Shown one piece after another: positions 13,540-22,190 of a DNA stretch of 22,717 nucleotides. The translations under genes and the position numbers were made by a program. This DNA is from a virus: positions 1 through 22,717 of the IMG/VR virus record IMGVR_UViG_3300031514_000008. One strand, given 5' to 3'. The notes under the pieces are model-generated. The model did no database searches. It saw only the letters and a list, made by a program, of their open reading frames with translations, and was not told the origin of the DNA. How positions within the stretch are numbered: position 1 is the stretch's first letter; the number at the start of each line of letters is the position of its first letter.

Positions 13540-13559
13540 CGTTTGAAGGGGGCACGCCA

Positions 13560-15095
13560 ATGAAAAAAAGCGGCGATGTGGGCAATGCCCCGCATTTGCA
13601 CTTCCACGAGCTTGCCGACGTGTTTCCGCTACTGCCGGAGGCGGAACTTGACTCGCTGACCGAGGACATCCGCCAGCACGGGCTGCGGGAGCCGATCGTT
13701 CTTTATCAGGGCAAAGTGCTCGATGGCCGCAACCGCTGGCTGGTCTGCCAACGACTGGGCATCAAACCGGCGACGCGAGAGTTTCAAGGCGACGCGCTGG
13801 CGGCACTGGCTTACGTCTGGTCGGCGAATTTCCACCGGCGACATCTCACCCCAAGCCAGGCCGCCGTCGCCCAGGCCAAGCGGGAAAAATTGTGCCAGCA
13901 ATACGCCGCCCAGGTGGCTGAGGTAAAAGCCGAAGCAAGGCAGCGGCAGAAGGAAGCGGGCACGCACGGCAAGCTAGGCGGTCGAGGGAAGAAGAAAACC
14001 CTTCCCAAAATAATTGGGGAAGGGTTCGAGAGGCATGAGCGAGAAACCGATACGCAGCTTGCCCGTGCCAGCGGCACAAACCCGCAATACTTGCGTGATG
14101 CCCGCAAGCTGGTCGAGGCGGCCCCTGATCTGGCCGAGAAGGTGGAGGTCGGCCAACTGACGATCCCTCAGGCCAAGGTGGAACTCCAGCGGCGAGAGAA
14201 GCGGCAAGAGCTTGAAAAAAAGGCCGCTGCCGCCAAGAAGCATGATAGCCAGCAGTGGGAGATCATCTGCGGCGACTGCCTGGAGGTCCTCCCAAAAATC
14301 TCGGAAAAAGCCCGGCTCATTTTCGCCGACCCGCCGTACAACATCGGGATCGATTACGGCGAGGGCTCCAAGGCCGATCGATTGCCGCCGTGGGAATACT
14401 TGCAATGGTGTGCTCAGTGGATTCGAGCCTGCTGGGACGCTCTGACCGATGACGGAAGCTTCTGGTTACTGATCAACCACGAAAACGCCGCCGCCTTGGA
14501 ATTGATCGGACGCGGAGTTTACCAGCTTCATTCCAAAAAAAAAGGCCGGCCCTATGATTCCGTGGCATATATATTGATCGAAGGCCTGCTCGGACCAACG
14601 CCCAGCGTGGCAGCGGAGATCAAGGCGCTGTACGTCCGCTCCTGGATTACCTGGTACGAAACGTTCGGCGTCAACCAGGCCAACAACTTCAACCGCTGTT
14701 CTCGGCGATTGCTTTATTTCGTCAAGAACCCGAAGCGCTTCGTTTTCAACAGTACGGCGGTGATGCGGCCATCAGACCGGCAGGTCAAATACGAAGACAA
14801 ACGGGCAGCACCTGGCGGAAAAATCCTCGATGACGTATGGAGCGACATTCCGCGACTGGTGGGAACCGCCGCCGAACGCCTGCCGGATTTTCCCACGCAA
14901 TTGCCGGTGGCCCTGGTGCAACGAATAGTGGAGTGCGGCAGCGAGCCAGGCGACCTGGTGATCGACCCATTCTGTGGTTCAGCATCAACCGGTGTGGCTT
15001 GCCTGCGGACAGGCCGCCGATTCCTCGGCATCGAAAAATCCCAGAAGTTTGCCGATCTGGCGACCAAGAGGATGCAAGCGTGTTCCGCACAGTGA
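13560..15095 (+). CDS. ParB-domain / DNA adenine-or-cytosine-N4 methyltransferase fusion
   Basis: I place the start at ATG 13560, preceded by GAAGGGGG, giving 511 aa; the frame also extends upstream through the leader. Residues ~10-110 are a ParB-like nuclease/CTPase domain (ELDSLTEDIRQHGLREPIVL, VLDGRNRWLVCQRLG, SANFHRRHLTPSQAA). Residues ~110-230 are a charged helical linker with an HTH-like part (ARASGTNPQYLRDARKLVE). Residues ~235-511 form the methyltransferase: catalytic DPPY at 257-260 (FADPPYNIGIDYG) and the SAM site DPFCGSASTG at 469-478. With DPPY before the SAM motif the order is that of beta-class N6-adenine/N4-cytosine enzymes. ParB-fused methylases are common in phages and usually protect phage DNA from restriction. 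The neighbouring nuclease gene overlaps its 3' end. Confidence 0.85.
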   Translation: MKKSGDVGNAPHLHFHELADVFPLLPEAELDSLTEDIRQHGLREPIVLYQGKVLDGRNRWLVCQRLGIKPATREFQGDALAALAYVWSANFHRRHLTPSQAAVAQAKREKLCQQYAAQVAEVKAEARQRQKEAGTHGKLGGRGKKKTLPKIIGEGFERHERETDTQLARASGTNPQYLRDARKLVEAAPDLAEKVEVGQLTIPQAKVELQRREKRQELEKKAAAAKKHDSQQWEIICGDCLEVLPKISEKARLIFADPPYNIGIDYGEGSKADRLPPWEYLQWCAQWIRACWDALTDDGSFWLLINHENAAALELIGRGVYQLHSKKKGRPYDSVAYILIEGLLGPTPSVAAEIKALYVRSWITWYETFGVNQANNFNRCSRRLLYFVKNPKRFVFNSTAVMRPSDRQVKYEDKRAAPGGKILDDVWSDIPRLVGTAAERLPDFPTQLPVALVQRIVECGSEPGDLVIDPFCGSASTGVACLRTGRRFLGIEKSQKFADLATKRMQACSAQ

Positions 15096-16811: not shown

Positions 16812-17666
16812 ATGATCTGGGTTACGCCACCACAACATGTGACCATCGACATCGAAACCATTGCGGGCGATCCCACGGAGGCCGAGGCCTCGTTGCGGCG
16901 AACCTTCGCCCCCAATGCGAACTGGAAGCCAGCCACGATCGGAGAGCGCTACCTGGAAGCCCTGGAAAAGAAAAAGGAGCGTCTCGCACTTCTGGACACG
17001 GCCCCGATCATCTCGGTGGCCTTGAGAACGGAAGCAGACTGCCGACTGCTGCACTGGATGCCGATTGATGACCAGCAGATCGCCGGCGTGCCGTTGGAGC
17101 GGTTGGCCGATCAACGCTCGATGCTCCTGCGGCTGCGGGAATATCTGCTGGTCTGCGGGCCGGAGACCGTGCTTGTCGGCCACAACCTGCGGCATTTCGA
17201 TCTTCCCCGCTTGCGGCTGGCAATGATCCGCCACGGCCTCCGGTTGCCGCCGTGCCTGGCTGATCCTGAGCAACCCACATATGACACCATGGCCATGTGG
17301 CGATACTTCAGCTTGGAAGAAAAAACAATGACCAGCTTGGAGGAAGCACTGGAAGCGGCAGGACTGGTGAACCACAAGGCCGCCATGTCGGGCGTGGACG
17401 TTCCCGAAGTCTATCGGAAAGGCGACTACAAAACTTTGGCGGCGTATGCGCTCGCGGATGTACTGGCGCAAGACGCACTGTATTTGTGGATGACCGGCCA
17501 ATTGCCAGACCGGGAGGTTGAATCGCCCGCCCTTCAGCCTGTCGAATCGCAACAGCAAGCCGTCGAGGTACCGGTAGTCCAAGCGGAAATCGTTTCAACG
17601 TCGATCGTCGATGAGTACGACAAGCTTTTGCGTGAACTCGGTGTGCTCACAGGAGAACAATCATGA
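16812..17666 (+). CDS. DEDDy 3'-5' exonuclease (PolB-associated / DnaQ-like)
   Basis: The product is 284 aa. Exo motif I is Asp13-x-Glu15 (VTIDIETIAGD), motif II lies in VGHNLRHFDLPRL (Gly123-His-Asn, Asp130) and motif III is Tyr212-x3-Asp216 (YALADVLAQD), giving the DEDDy set used with two metal ions. The arrangement matches the family of predicted 3'-5' exonucleases related to the PolB proofreading domain. The last ~50 residues are a Gln/Val/Glu-rich tail outside the fold. Its stop overlaps the start of the coiled-coil ATPase (ATGA), so the two are translationally coupled and probably act together on DNA ends. Confidence 0.8.
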   Translation: MIWVTPPQHVTIDIETIAGDPTEAEASLRRTFAPNANWKPATIGERYLEALEKKKERLALLDTAPIISVALRTEADCRLLHWMPIDDQQIAGVPLERLADQRSMLLRLREYLLVCGPETVLVGHNLRHFDLPRLRLAMIRHGLRLPPCLADPEQPTYDTMAMWRYFSLEEKTMTSLEEALEAAGLVNHKAAMSGVDVPEVYRKGDYKTLAAYALADVLAQDALYLWMTGQLPDREVESPALQPVESQQQAVEVPVVQAEIVSTSIVDEYDKLLRELGVLTGEQS

Positions 17667-19093
17667 AACTGATCGAACTGCAAAACGTCGGCCCAATCGA
17701 GAAACTTGCAATCCCCTTGCCTGATGCTGGCGTAGTCGTCCTGAAAGGCCGCAACGGCATCGGCAAATCGCACGCCCTGGCGGCGATCGACAGCCTGGTC
17801 AGCGGTCGGGGCCGTCCGCCTTGCCGCGATGGTGCAGCCAAAGGCGTGATCGAAGGCTTTGGAGCCAAGCTGACGATTGGCAGAAGCCAGCGACGAACTG
17901 GCGAAGCGGAAGTGGTAACGCTGGAAGGACGGCTCGACCTTTCGCAGCTAGTGCAGCCTCCGATAAAGGATGACGAGGCCGCGGACCGACAGCGGATAAA
18001 AGCCCTTATTCAGTTATCCGGCCAGTCCGCGGACCCAACCACATTCGCGACCATTCTACCGCCCGACACTTCCATTGGCGAGCTGGTCGGCCCGTCTGAG
18101 CAGACCGACGATCCAGTGATCTTTGCCGGAAGGCTCAAGCGGGCGTTGGAAGCAGAAGCCCGGCGGTACGAACGCCAACTAGAAGATGCGCGCTCGCAAG
18201 TTTCCGCTTTGCGGCAGCAGTTACCAGGCCCGGTGCCCCAAGAGGCCACCAGCGAAGCCGCTTGCCAGCAAGCACGGCTGCAGGCCGAGCAGCAGCTTCA
18301 GCAGGCCCTGGTGAGGCTGAAAGAATTGGAAACCCGCCAGCAGATAGCGGCACAGCAGGCTGAACAAGTGGCCCATGCCAAGAAGCAATTGGCCGAATTG
18401 AAGGCGGCCAGCATCCGCGAGCCGGCCGAGTACGAGGCGGAACTGGTTGACCTGGACGCCAAGATCGCCAAGCTTCAGCAGGCATTGGCTGCACTGCGAA
18501 CACAGCGTGAACAGGTGAAGAAGCAGGCGGAAGATGCCGCCCGGCTTCGCAAGCAGATCGAGGAACTCCGGAAGGTGGTTGAGCAAGTGCCGCAGATCGT
18601 CGGCGACGAGGAACTGACTGCCGCCCAGCAGGCGGTCGAGGAAGCCCGGCGGAAGCACGCGGAAGCGGTCCACCTGGTTGGCATCGGAAAGATGATCGAC
18701 CAGATCAAGCAGCTTGCCGGCGTGGCGGCGGCAGCGGAAAAGCACGCGGAAGCGTACCGGGAAGCCGCGAAGTCGACCGATGATGTACTGACCAGCCTGG
18801 TGGCCGCCGTGACCAGGCGGCTGCGGGTCGAAAGCGGTCGGCTGGTGTGCGATACCGACCGTGGTGTGGAGGCCTTTAGCGAGCTATCGCCTGGCGAGCG
18901 GTGGCGGATCGCACTTGAGATTGCGGCTGAGCAGGTCGGCCAGGGTGGACTGGTTACCGTTCCGCAGGAAGCGTGGGAATCGCTCGATCCGGTCAATCGG
19001 GCCGAGGTAGCTGCGATCGCCCGCCAGGTCGGCGTGGTGATCCTGACGGCGGAGGCCGATGAGCATCAGGAAATCGTTGCGGAGGTCGCATGA
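17663..19093 (+). CDS. RecF/Rad50-like coiled-coil ATPase
   Basis: The product is 476 aa. Residues 1-45 start an ABC-type head with Walker A GRNGIGKS (29-36). Residues ~155-390 are a long coiled coil, broken near residue 190 by a Pro-rich turn. The C-terminal head has the signature LSPGE (408-412) and a D-loop SLDP around residue 442. Where Walker B should end in Asp-Glu the sequence is VTVPQEAW (Pro434, Gln435, Glu436), so the metal-binding Asp seems replaced. No zinc-hook CxxC lies in the coiled coil. The protein resembles SbcC/Rad50-type partners of nucleases, and the coupled DEDDy exonuclease supports this. ATPase strength is uncertain because of Walker B. Confidence 0.75.
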   Translation: MKLIELQNVGPIEKLAIPLPDAGVVVLKGRNGIGKSHALAAIDSLVSGRGRPPCRDGAAKGVIEGFGAKLTIGRSQRRTGEAEVVTLEGRLDLSQLVQPPIKDDEAADRQRIKALIQLSGQSADPTTFATILPPDTSIGELVGPSEQTDDPVIFAGRLKRALEAEARRYERQLEDARSQVSALRQQLPGPVPQEATSEAACQQARLQAEQQLQQALVRLKELETRQQIAAQQAEQVAHAKKQLAELKAASIREPAEYEAELVDLDAKIAKLQQALAALRTQREQVKKQAEDAARLRKQIEELRKVVEQVPQIVGDEELTAAQQAVEEARRKHAEAVHLVGIGKMIDQIKQLAGVAAAAEKHAEAYREAAKSTDDVLTSLVAAVTRRLRVESGRLVCDTDRGVEAFSELSPGERWRIALEIAAEQVGQGGLVTVPQEAWESLDPVNRAEVAAIARQVGVVILTAEADEHQEIVAEVA

Positions 19094-19681: not shown

Positions 19682-20077
19682 GTGCTCGACCAGCAGCAGA
19701 CCAAGGTCACCTTCGCAATCGCGCCGTGGGACGGCCGTGACGTCAGACTAGTGCTTGTTCATCATGGTCAGCACGAGATATTCCGTGACCGGTTGGATGT
19801 CTGTAGCAGCAAGGCCCGATCAAGGCTCGCTCATCAAATTGCCTGGCAGTTGCAAATGGGCGGCGAAGACATGGCATACCTTTTGAAATACTGCCACGCA
19901 ACGCTGCCAGCCCTGGCCGACGCTGCCGACGAGCAGGCCGACCAATTGGCTCAACAGACCGGGCCGGTCGAAACCAATCCCCGTTTTCCCGCAACAACCT
20001 GTTGGGCGATGCGGGAAGCCTGGCGGCGGGCGGTCGAGCATCGGCGGCGTTTGCTGTTCGGAGACACACAGCAATGA
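19682..20077 (+). CDS. 131-aa phage protein, unknown (GTG start)
   Basis: The frame has an upstream ATG at 19646 inside the previous gene, but a perfect AAGGAGGT at 19668-19675 points to GTG 19682, 6 nt downstream. The product has a beta-rich N-terminus (KVTFAIAPWDGRDVRLVLVH) and helical remainder (ARSRLAHQIAWQLQMGGEDM, ALADAADEQADQLAQQ, MREAWRRAVEHRRRLLF). No family is recognised. A short terminator-like hairpin follows. Confidence 0.6.
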   Translation: MLDQQQTKVTFAIAPWDGRDVRLVLVHHGQHEIFRDRLDVCSSKARSRLAHQIAWQLQMGGEDMAYLLKYCHATLPALADAADEQADQLAQQTGPVETNPRFPATTCWAMREAWRRAVEHRRRLLFGDTQQ

Positions 20078-20082
20078 GCGAG

Positions 20083-20106
20083 AAAACGCCCATTTCGGGC
20101 TTTTCC
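20083..20106. terminator. Short terminator-like hairpin between genes
   Basis: GAAAAC-GCCC-ATTTC-GGGC-TTTT: a 4-bp GC stem extended by A-T pairs, with T4 on the + side and A4 on the other, so it could act in both directions. The stem is short, so termination would be partial. The next gene has its own AAAGGAG. Confidence 0.4.
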
Positions 20107-20127
20107 CTCAAAAAAGGAGCAGAATCT

Positions 20128-20817
20128 ATGGCACGCAGAAGAAGAACCGAGGTAGATGTTCCGATTCCCCCACTCCCTATCGAAACGTGTCAACTTTATC
20201 TGGTGGGCGATAGCCCGCTTATCTGCCACGCCTGGAACGCAAAGGCCGAGCAACAGATTCTCGGCAAGCAAATGAAAAAAGCGCGGCACGCAAAGCAAGC
20301 GAAAAATCCCTGGGAAGACTTCTGCAATTCCCTCTACTGGCTCACCGGGTGCCCGCCGCAGTATATCCTCACAGAGTGCCCGGAATCGCCCACAGAGGAA
20401 GACATTGAGAAAGGTGCGTTCGGCTTTCCCTCAATTGCCTTCAAGGCGGCGGCTGTCGAGGCCTGCCCACAGGTCGATGGCGTAGCCAAAACCAAAGCGC
20501 GGGCCGCAATGCACATCGTGGGCGAGTATGTGAAGATCGAGGGGACACCGAAGCGGCGGCGAGATTTTGTGCGGCTGCCCACGGGCGTGGCCGACATACG
20601 CTTTCGCGCTGAGTTCTGGCCGTGGCACACGTGTCTGACGATTCGCTTCAACGCCAACGTCCTCAGCCTGGATCAGATCGTGAACCTTTTCCAGGTGGCC
20701 GGGTTCGGCATAGGGGTGGGCGAAGGACGCCCGGAGCGCGGCGGCCAATGGGGATTGTTCCATGTGGCATCGCAAGAAGAAATAGTGGCCTTACAGCAGG
20801 AAAGGAAAAGCAGATGA
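20128..20817 (+). CDS. Conserved phage early protein, function unknown
   Basis: I choose ATG 20128, which has AAAAAAGGAG upstream, over an in-frame ATG at 20074 that would read through the hairpin at 20083-20106. The product is 229 aa and begins with a basic stretch (MARRRRTEVDVPIPPLP). It continues with LYLVGDSPLICHAWNAKA, a middle part FGFPSIAFKAAAVEAC, and a C-terminal VAGFGIGVGEGRPERGGQWG block followed by LFHV. This last block is recurrent in phage early proteins of unknown role. It stands in the DNA-metabolism region with the next gene coupled (TGAGG at its end), so a recombination or DNA-binding role is possible but unproven. Confidence 0.7.
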   Translation: MARRRRTEVDVPIPPLPIETCQLYLVGDSPLICHAWNAKAEQQILGKQMKKARHAKQAKNPWEDFCNSLYWLTGCPPQYILTECPESPTEEDIEKGAFGFPSIAFKAAAVEACPQVDGVAKTKARAAMHIVGEYVKIEGTPKRRRDFVRLPTGVADIRFRAEFWPWHTCLTIRFNANVLSLDQIVNLFQVAGFGIGVGEGRPERGGQWGLFHVASQEEIVALQQERKSR

Positions 20818-21299
20818 GGTACAGGTACGACTTCCGCAGCGGCTTCCGTCTTTGCGGCGACCCGCAAGTGGTCGGGGAGTGCCTGGAGGAAATCCGGCAA
20901 AAGAACGGGGGCTGGCTCCAGGCCGAAGCGGTAGTGAGAGAAGCCAGGAATCCAAAGAATCCCTTGCATCGGTACTTCGAGTGGGATGACCGCAAGGCAG
21001 CACATCAGTACAGGCTTCGCCAGGCTGACTATTTGATTCGAGCCGTGGTGGTCTGCCCCGAAGAAGGCGAGCACAAGTTCGAGCCGGTGCGGGCGTTTGT
21101 CTGTTTGGAGCGCGAAAGCGACAGCAAGGCGTACTCGCACGTGTGTGCTGCGATGCGAGACGAAACAACGCGGCAGCAGATTCTGGAGAGGGCCTACCGG
21201 GAACTCCAGTGGTGGCGGCGCAAATATGCCGCTCTAGTTGAGTTCGCGGATTTATTTGCGGTAATCGACCGCTTCGCATTTGCTGAAGCTGGGCATTAG
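20814..21299 (+). CDS. Conserved phage protein, function unknown
   Basis: ATG 20814 overlaps the previous stop (ATGA) and has AGGAAA upstream; the frame also extends to 20622 inside the previous gene. The product is 161 aa. Residues ~35-75 have the recurring phage pattern VVREARNPKNPLHRYFEWDD followed by RKAAHQYRLRQADYLIRAV. The C-terminus is helical (QQILERAYRELQWWRRKYAA). Similar proteins appear near recombination genes in siphoviruses; their role is not known to me. The pentamer repeat array begins 2 nt after its stop. Confidence 0.7.
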   Translation: MRYRYDFRSGFRLCGDPQVVGECLEEIRQKNGGWLQAEAVVREARNPKNPLHRYFEWDDRKAAHQYRLRQADYLIRAVVVCPEEGEHKFEPVRAFVCLERESDSKAYSHVCAAMRDETTRQQILERAYRELQWWRRKYAALVEFADLFAVIDRFAFAEAGH

Positions 21300-21300
21300 T

Positions 21301-21947
21301 TGGGCAAGGCGTGGCTCGGCCGGGCAAGGCAAGGCCTGGCTGGGCGAGGCATGGCATGGCGTGGCGAGGCTGGGCGAGGCATGGCAGGGCGGGGCATGGC
21401 AGGCTTGGCAGGCGTGGCATGTCAAGGCAGGGCGTGGCTAGGCGTGGCGAGGCCTGGCGCGGCTCGGCCTGGCGGGGCATGGCGTGGCGGGGCAGGGCAT
21501 GGCAGGCAGGGCTCGGCAGGGCATGGCGCGGCGCGGCAAGGCTCGGCGTGGCGGGGCCCGGCTCGGCCAGGCAGGGCAGGGCAGGGCTTGGCAGGCGGGG
21601 CCGGGCCCGGCGGGGCAAGGCACGGCGCGGCTAGGCAGGGCATGGCGCGGCGCGGCAAGGCATGGCATGGCAGGGCTCGGCCCGGCGGGGCAAGGCAGGG
21701 CATGGCATGGCAGGCGTGGCATGTCAAGGCAGGGCGTGGCTAGGCGTGGCGAGGCTTGGCAGGCTTGGCATGGCACGGCTGGGCAGGGCTTGGCTTGGCA
21801 CGGCGGGGCAAGGCGGGGCGGGGCCTGGCAAGGCATGGCTTGGCAAGGCTTGGCAGGCGTGGCTTGGCTGGGCGTGGCAAGGCTGGGCGCGGCGCGGCTT
21901 GGCTGGGCGCGGCACGGCAGGGCACGGCTTGGCAGGCTTGGCTTGGC
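21301..21947 (+). repeat. NNGGC pentamer array (123 pentamers and 8 tetramers)
   Basis: The 647 nt parse completely into units ending in GGC: 123 units of five bases and 8 of four. GGC is kept in 129 of 131 units; the two exceptions are both ATGTC, in two copies of a 48-nt duplicated block (21406-21453 and 21708-21755). The two leading bases take all 16 values. The array is strand-asymmetric, with GGC on + at every unit. It lies in a 672-nt gap between genes 20814-21299 and 21972-22190. Open frames exist on both strands but are by-products of the composition. I do not recognise it as a known repeat family. Confidence 0.95.
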
Positions 21948-21971: not shown

Positions 21972-22190
21972 ATGGAGATTTCCCCTGAACCCGGCACACC
22001 GGAGCGGATAGCCGACGGCCTTGACACCGTTTCCTTGAAGTTACACCAGACTGCGGAAAAGCTTCGCGTGCTGGCAGCCGAGGTACGGGAACTGGGGGAA
22101 TCTCTGAAAAACTGGATTGAAGTCGCAATGCGGGCCGGTGAAAAGATGGCCAGACAGGAAAGGGGAAACGACGATGAACACAGAAAATGA
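21972..22190 (+). CDS. 72-aa helical protein, unknown
   Basis: The start follows the repeat array after 24 nt, with AAAGGA 11 nt upstream. The product is mostly one amphipathic helical region (DGLDTVSLKLHQTAEKLRVL, then AAEVRELGESLKNWIEVAMRAG), ending in a charged tail. A small coiled-coil or dimeric accessory protein is likely. Its end overlaps the next gene by 17 nt. Confidence 0.6.
   Translation: MEISPEPGTPERIADGLDTVSLKLHQTAEKLRVLAAEVRELGESLKNWIEVAMRAGEKMARQERGNDDEHRK

Follow-up and report, generated by a model that had tools for sequence, protein, structure and literature searches.

A phage-borne array of 131 NNGGC units beside a vipr gene, very probably a guide RNA array of a VIPR system

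Results

The window analysed here spans the 22,717 bases of the IMG/VR virus record IMGVR_UViG_3300031514_000008 and includes genes for a head protein and a tape measure protein. Near its end, on the plus strand, a gene for a RAMP (Cas7/Csm3-like) protein of 247 aa (20074..20817, phrog_4652), identified below as vipr, is followed by a gene for a 161-aa protein (20814..21299, phrog_15946) with the motif LHxxFEWDDxxAAxxYRxxQAR, the candidate accessory gene vap. For the start of the former we relied on L151, a different contig with the same genes, and on an ATGA overlap with the preceding gene. The array itself, at 21301..21947 (+), fills the intergenic gap between the small accessory gene (stop 21299) and a small gene directly 3' of it (21972..22190, +). 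The latter, taken from the list of open reading frames, had zero Pfam or PHROG matches and is probably not part of the system described below. The first-pass annotation had placed the array upstream of a replication-type gene; none lies downstream in the window, and exonuclease-like and SbcC/Rad50-like genes are found upstream, at 16812-19093. The SbcC/Rad50-like ATPase (17663-19093) gave weak PADLOC matches to LmuB of Lamassu and to other defence ATPases, and a DNA methyltransferase fused to a ParB-like N-terminal region is encoded at 13554-15095. A genome search for the phage host by means of three loci found nothing.

The 647 nucleotides of the array divide with zero remainder into 123 pentamers and 8 tetramers, exactly as the first-pass annotation had them: 129 of the 131 units end in GGC, and each of the 16 possible dinucleotides is found in front of it. 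The first free position is biased towards A and G and seldom holds C. A seven-unit GGCNN pattern has 78 forward matches in the window, 0 on the reverse strand and 0 for a mirrored (backwards) control; the pattern is strand-specific and far above chance. TRF reports the tract merely as a poor 70% period-5 repeat, and an Rfam scan yielded no match at the gathering threshold. A BLAST search of INPHARED with the array, under a low-complexity filter, likewise gave no match. A coding reading was rejected: NNGGC tracts are automatically open in all frames except at TAGGC, so long open reading frames on the array are meaningless.

Both units that depart from GGC read ATGTC, one in each copy of a single internal duplication of about ten units (approximately 21395-21455 and 21705-21760). 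Because these exceptions sit in the two duplicate copies, the array also expands by block copying. All eight tetramers are AGGC, each preceded by AT or TT, and from the unit parse they are proposed as guide boundaries 1 to 8, in this order: 21401..21404 (where the ten-unit peak in short-unit spacing of the whole class, given below, was also considered), 21410..21413, 21504..21507, 21593..21596, 21712..21715, 21761..21764, 21855..21858 and 21934..21937, all on the plus strand. The spacing between them ranges from 2 to 24 units. No structured 3' tail between guides is visible in the array.

L151, compared over 12.8 kb, carries the same genes, with a Vipr gene 95% identical to that of the window. 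Its array of 83 units occupies the same position between the same genes, with GGC intact in 83/83 units and NN largely rearranged. Aligned in unit space, the two arrays have only two long blocks in common, of 16 and 11 units, and differ in the remainder. GGC is held while NN turns over between homologous arrays, the behaviour that the first-pass annotation had proposed to look for. Since L151 is a separate contig with a homologous array, the array is not an assembly artefact. On the 3' side of the arrays, only GGCGTTTGA is common to the window and L151.

The search for such arrays elsewhere, suggested in the same annotation, was made with a ten-unit pattern and matched at least 120 viral and at least 120 genome stretches, the high-entropy viral ones being mostly located beside vipr. 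Among the matches listed, NN entropy reaches 3 bits or more at 71 of 120 viral loci versus 5 of 120 genome loci. A functionless pentanucleotide microsatellite accumulating mutations would find some support in the internal block duplications, which show growth by recombination too, and in the low-entropy GGC pentamer repeats that are common in bacterial genomes. However, it accounts neither for the near-fixed GGC next to all 16 dinucleotides, nor for the viral excess of high-entropy arrays, nor for the conservation of a homologous array in L151, and we give it hardly any credence. The earlier view that the pattern is meaningful, with three positions rigid and two free on a single strand, and is not a product of slipped-strand repeat growth, stands.

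The most frequent broken unit in the class is GGT (129 of 286), followed by GGA, as a GGY consensus predicts. This bears on a G-quadruplex tract (G2N3) working by structure alone, which the first-pass annotation had considered. GG does recur every 5 nt on one strand; but the C of GGC is kept, or replaced mainly by T, and a two-layer quadruplex built on GG requires neither a near-invariant C nor diverse NN. It would also leave the linked RAMP gene and the target matches described below unexplained, and its likelihood is minimal.

Short units in the class begin with A in 167 of 192 cases. They recur every 8-14 units, with a mode of 10, and thereby form a second, longer period inside the arrays; several arrays may occur in one phage. 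The interruptions that recur about every 10 units are phage-specific: GGCAAGGCT, GGCAAGGCC, GGCGTTCAG and GGACTTCGA in L130, L144, L035 and L224, respectively, parallel to TTGGCAGGC of the window. A terminator-like hairpin, as expected at the end of a small RNA, lies close 3' of the arrays in L130 (3383-3860; with a T run) and L144. Four bacterial genome contigs (L162, L168, L224 and L258) have a vipr-like gene together with high-entropy arrays and are presumably prophages; the first three belong to metagenome-assembled genomes of Fibrobacteres, Patescibacteria and Alphaproteobacteria, respectively.

Clustering of open reading frames from 117 array loci produced one dominant family, present at 63 loci and including the gene at 20074-20817, and a second family including the gene at 20814-21299. 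Among viral loci whose NN entropy was at least 3, a profile search found the first family at 68 of 80, versus 1 of 110 low-entropy genome loci; this figure is partly circular, the profile having been built from array-bearing loci. Arrays lie on the strand of this gene in 141 of 144 cases, most of them within about 1 kb of it. The candidate vap family occurs at 27 of the 80 viral loci with high-entropy arrays. Conversely, loci collected through vap, a search free of circularity for the array although a few contigs recur in both locus sets, contain vipr in 76 of 79 cases, a same-strand array in 41 and an opposite-strand array in 1. Among 80 relatives found through the head protein, vipr or vap was found in 0 and an array in one, the contig L280.

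VIPR, which a 2026 preprint introduced (PMC13142463), is a phage-encoded, RNA-guided, CRISPR-like system, carried mainly by phages and known from Escherichia phage SUSP1 and a Pseudomonas fulva prophage (PMC13142463; PDB 36pp). It combines Vipr RAMP proteins with vrRNAs in which GGY alternates with a free NN, each guide having 9-16 units; pairing with DNA is through the NN, one target base being skipped per unit, and the systems act against competing phages (PMC13142463). The preprint distinguishes seven VIPR types, describes a structured invariable 3' tail after the vrRNA repeats and an accessory protein, vap, and mentions "staggered arrays" (PMC13142463).

The profile of the dominant family (81 sequences) matched a single PDB chain, 36pp_D, "SUSP1 Vipr protein", with E=1.8e-43, while the next PDB matches had E>0.6. 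The link depends on the family profile: phmmer with the single Vipr sequence of the window did not reach the SUSP1 chain. For the window protein AlphaFold gave a model with pLDDT 89.7, whose top Foldseek and VIA-align matches are Csm3/Cas7 RAMPs throughout, with best Z scores of 9-11, up to 11.1, and the family conserves the Gly-rich loop residues G210, G214, G216, R219 and G227. Profile and model together identify the product of the gene at 20074-20817 as a Vipr protein with a predicted Cas7/Csm3 RAMP fold. The candidate vap at 20814-21299, recognised by its co-occurrence with arrays and vipr, has no detectable relation to the SUSP1 vap. The SUSP1 locus served as a positive control for the array scan, which recovered two arrays there, one of 11 GGT-type units ahead of vipr and another following vap.

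To examine the targeting code, every guide was decoded and compared with about 3.5 Mb of DNA on both strands, up to 2 mismatches being allowed per 10 units. A skip of 1 gave 42 matches versus 17, 23 and 15 for skips of 0, 2 and 3; most of this excess comes from one array, that of L280. A first target scan against unrelated loci gave no excess for skip 1. L280 is a 14.7-kb fragment of a related phage, with a head protein 65% identical to that of the window; vipr was not found in this fragment. The gene 5' of its solitary array of 11 units (1238-1292) is small and lies between terminase and portal. When one base is skipped per unit, this array agrees at 20-21 of 22 nt with sites in 17 related phages, which are homologous and count as one event; with skips of 0, 2 and 3 it matches none. 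The target site is antisense within a 65-aa gene between terminase and portal, and the skipped base falls on codon position 3. The copy of this gene in L280 itself, directly upstream of the array, has 7 mismatches in 22. Judged from these sequences, the pattern fits targeting of rivals with self-avoidance.

For the window array no convincing target emerged. Of the decoded patterns, four of 18 nt were compared with 2.9 million viral contigs, one taken from L151 and three common to the window and L151; they gave 2, 3, 0 and 0 exact matches, which is the chance level. Apparent targets were rejected. Units 16-24 of L151 match vap of Gordonia phage ODay at its 3' end (18/18 nt), but the same pattern also matches two unrelated genes. 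Rival vap genes as a group gave 31 antisense matches in the wobble register versus 1 to 30 in shuffles, barely above them. A match of one window guide pattern to one gene family (three contigs) stops exactly at the 9 units searched and is at chance level.

A cis-acting DNA element, that is an origin, packaging, centromere or recombination site where a protein reads GGC every half turn as DNA, would suit the intergenic position of the array. It also has precedents, as iteron-like and centromere-like arrays of short degenerate repeats exist, heptad and tetramer centromeres among them. On the other hand, the preference for the vipr strand and the possible presence of several arrays per phage are as for a transcribed RNA, the linked protein is a RAMP of the guide-RNA-binding kind, and the free dinucleotides of L280, decoded by the VIPR rule, spell out a DNA match. 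The origin, packaging and recombination roles entertained in the first-pass annotation are therefore not supported by our data, and we consider such an element very unlikely. Half-turn spacing as such explains neither the fixed C nor the RAMP gene.

A decoy or sponge RNA for a ring-forming, triplet-reading protein of the TRAP type, acting with no target pairing, would share the triplet-plus-spacer architecture of TRAP sites, which are NAG repeats with spacers of about two bases. Yet the linked protein has the RAMP fold, from which the TRAP fold differs, and the decoded match of L280 is not predicted by a sponge. It seems scarcely conceivable here.

Discussion

Our data bear directly on the anatomy of the array, on the family and fold of the Vipr protein, on the genetic linkage of the two and on how a single array of a related phage decodes. 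Taken with the homologous array in L151, the arrays beside vipr genes elsewhere and the published GGY/NN architecture of vrRNAs (PMC13142463), they make it very probable that the array at 21301..21947 is a vrRNA guide array of a phage-borne VIPR system. The locus is a new and unusually long example of this very recently described kind.

By analogy with the published systems (PMC13142463), we infer that the window array would be transcribed, processed and assembled into a ribonucleoprotein that pairs with DNA and silences genes. Transcription would proceed on the plus strand together with the early genes. Vipr copies would then align along the RNA, each occupying one five-base unit and holding its GGC (GGY) triplet, and the exposed dinucleotides would pair with double-stranded DNA, two bases being paired and one skipped per unit; on this reading, the skipped base can fall on a codon wobble position. 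The bound complexes would silence genes of competing phages, with the accessory gene at 20814-21299 probably aiding DNA binding. The role in filament nucleation suggested by the first-pass annotation survives only in a loose sense, since RAMP proteins oligomerise along RNA.

The window resembles the SUSP1 and P. fulva systems in its RAMP-fold Vipr, the adjoining candidate accessory gene, the intergenic same-strand arrays of GGY with hypervariable NN and its location in a phage. In contrast to SUSP1, where separate arrays of about 11 GGT-type units are each followed by a tail, it has a single unbroken tract of GGC-type units with one-base-short AGGC units and no evident tails, and its candidate accessory protein belongs to a different family. 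Class 1 CRISPR effectors (Cas7/Csm3 RAMPs) have in common with VIPR the fold, the Gly-rich loop, oligomerisation on the guide RNA and periodic unpaired target positions; the window system differs from them in its discontinuous two-of-five code, which replaces a contiguous spacer, and in its single short RAMP. A Class 1 CRISPR array was rejected as a reading of the tract, where the units are 5 nt long with free NN and there are no identical repeats with contiguous spacers. Neither CRISPR repeats nor cas1 were seen in the window. TRAP binding sites (NAG triplets with spacers of 2-3 nt) are similar in having a fixed triplet, a free spacer and a multimeric RNA-binding protein as the reader, although the TRAP spacers carry no information.

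The short units allow a further, tentative suggestion, to which we give slightly less than an even chance. The window may contain a tail-less polyguide array, in which a single GGC tract is subdivided by units one base short (in this phage [A/T]T-GGC-A-GGC, while others use different motifs) that shift the register and end each guide of about 10 units, whole guides being swapped between phages as recombination blocks. This arrangement may correspond to the "staggered arrays" of the preprint (PMC13142463). If true, it would constitute a distinct guide architecture and mode of inheritance within VIPR.

Of the RNA-guided systems reported, VIPR is the first whose targeting code is non-contiguous; it has been proposed as a forerunner of CRISPR and rests on one preprint so far (PMC13142463). 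To this the window adds an array of 131 units with a clear vipr neighbour, and L280 provides an independent natural test, in which the site read from one array is present in 17 relatives and the phage's own gene is spared. Each of the two proteins is found in 33 records of cultured phages with the same make-up (27 Mycobacterium phages, 5 Gordonia phages and 1 cyanophage), and arrays are present in 4 of the 4 such records examined. Because the linked mycobacteriophages and Gordonia phages are in culture, VIPR can be tested in laboratory hosts that are safe. Some genes annotated as hypothetical in these phages are probably guide arrays: gene 43 of Gordonia phage Pipp (3617-3886 in L273) and gene 47 of Mycobacterium phage Pippy (2647-2835 in L272), both labelled "hypothetical protein", lie largely or wholly on GGC arrays and are likely mis-calls, because GGC tracts are open in almost every frame.
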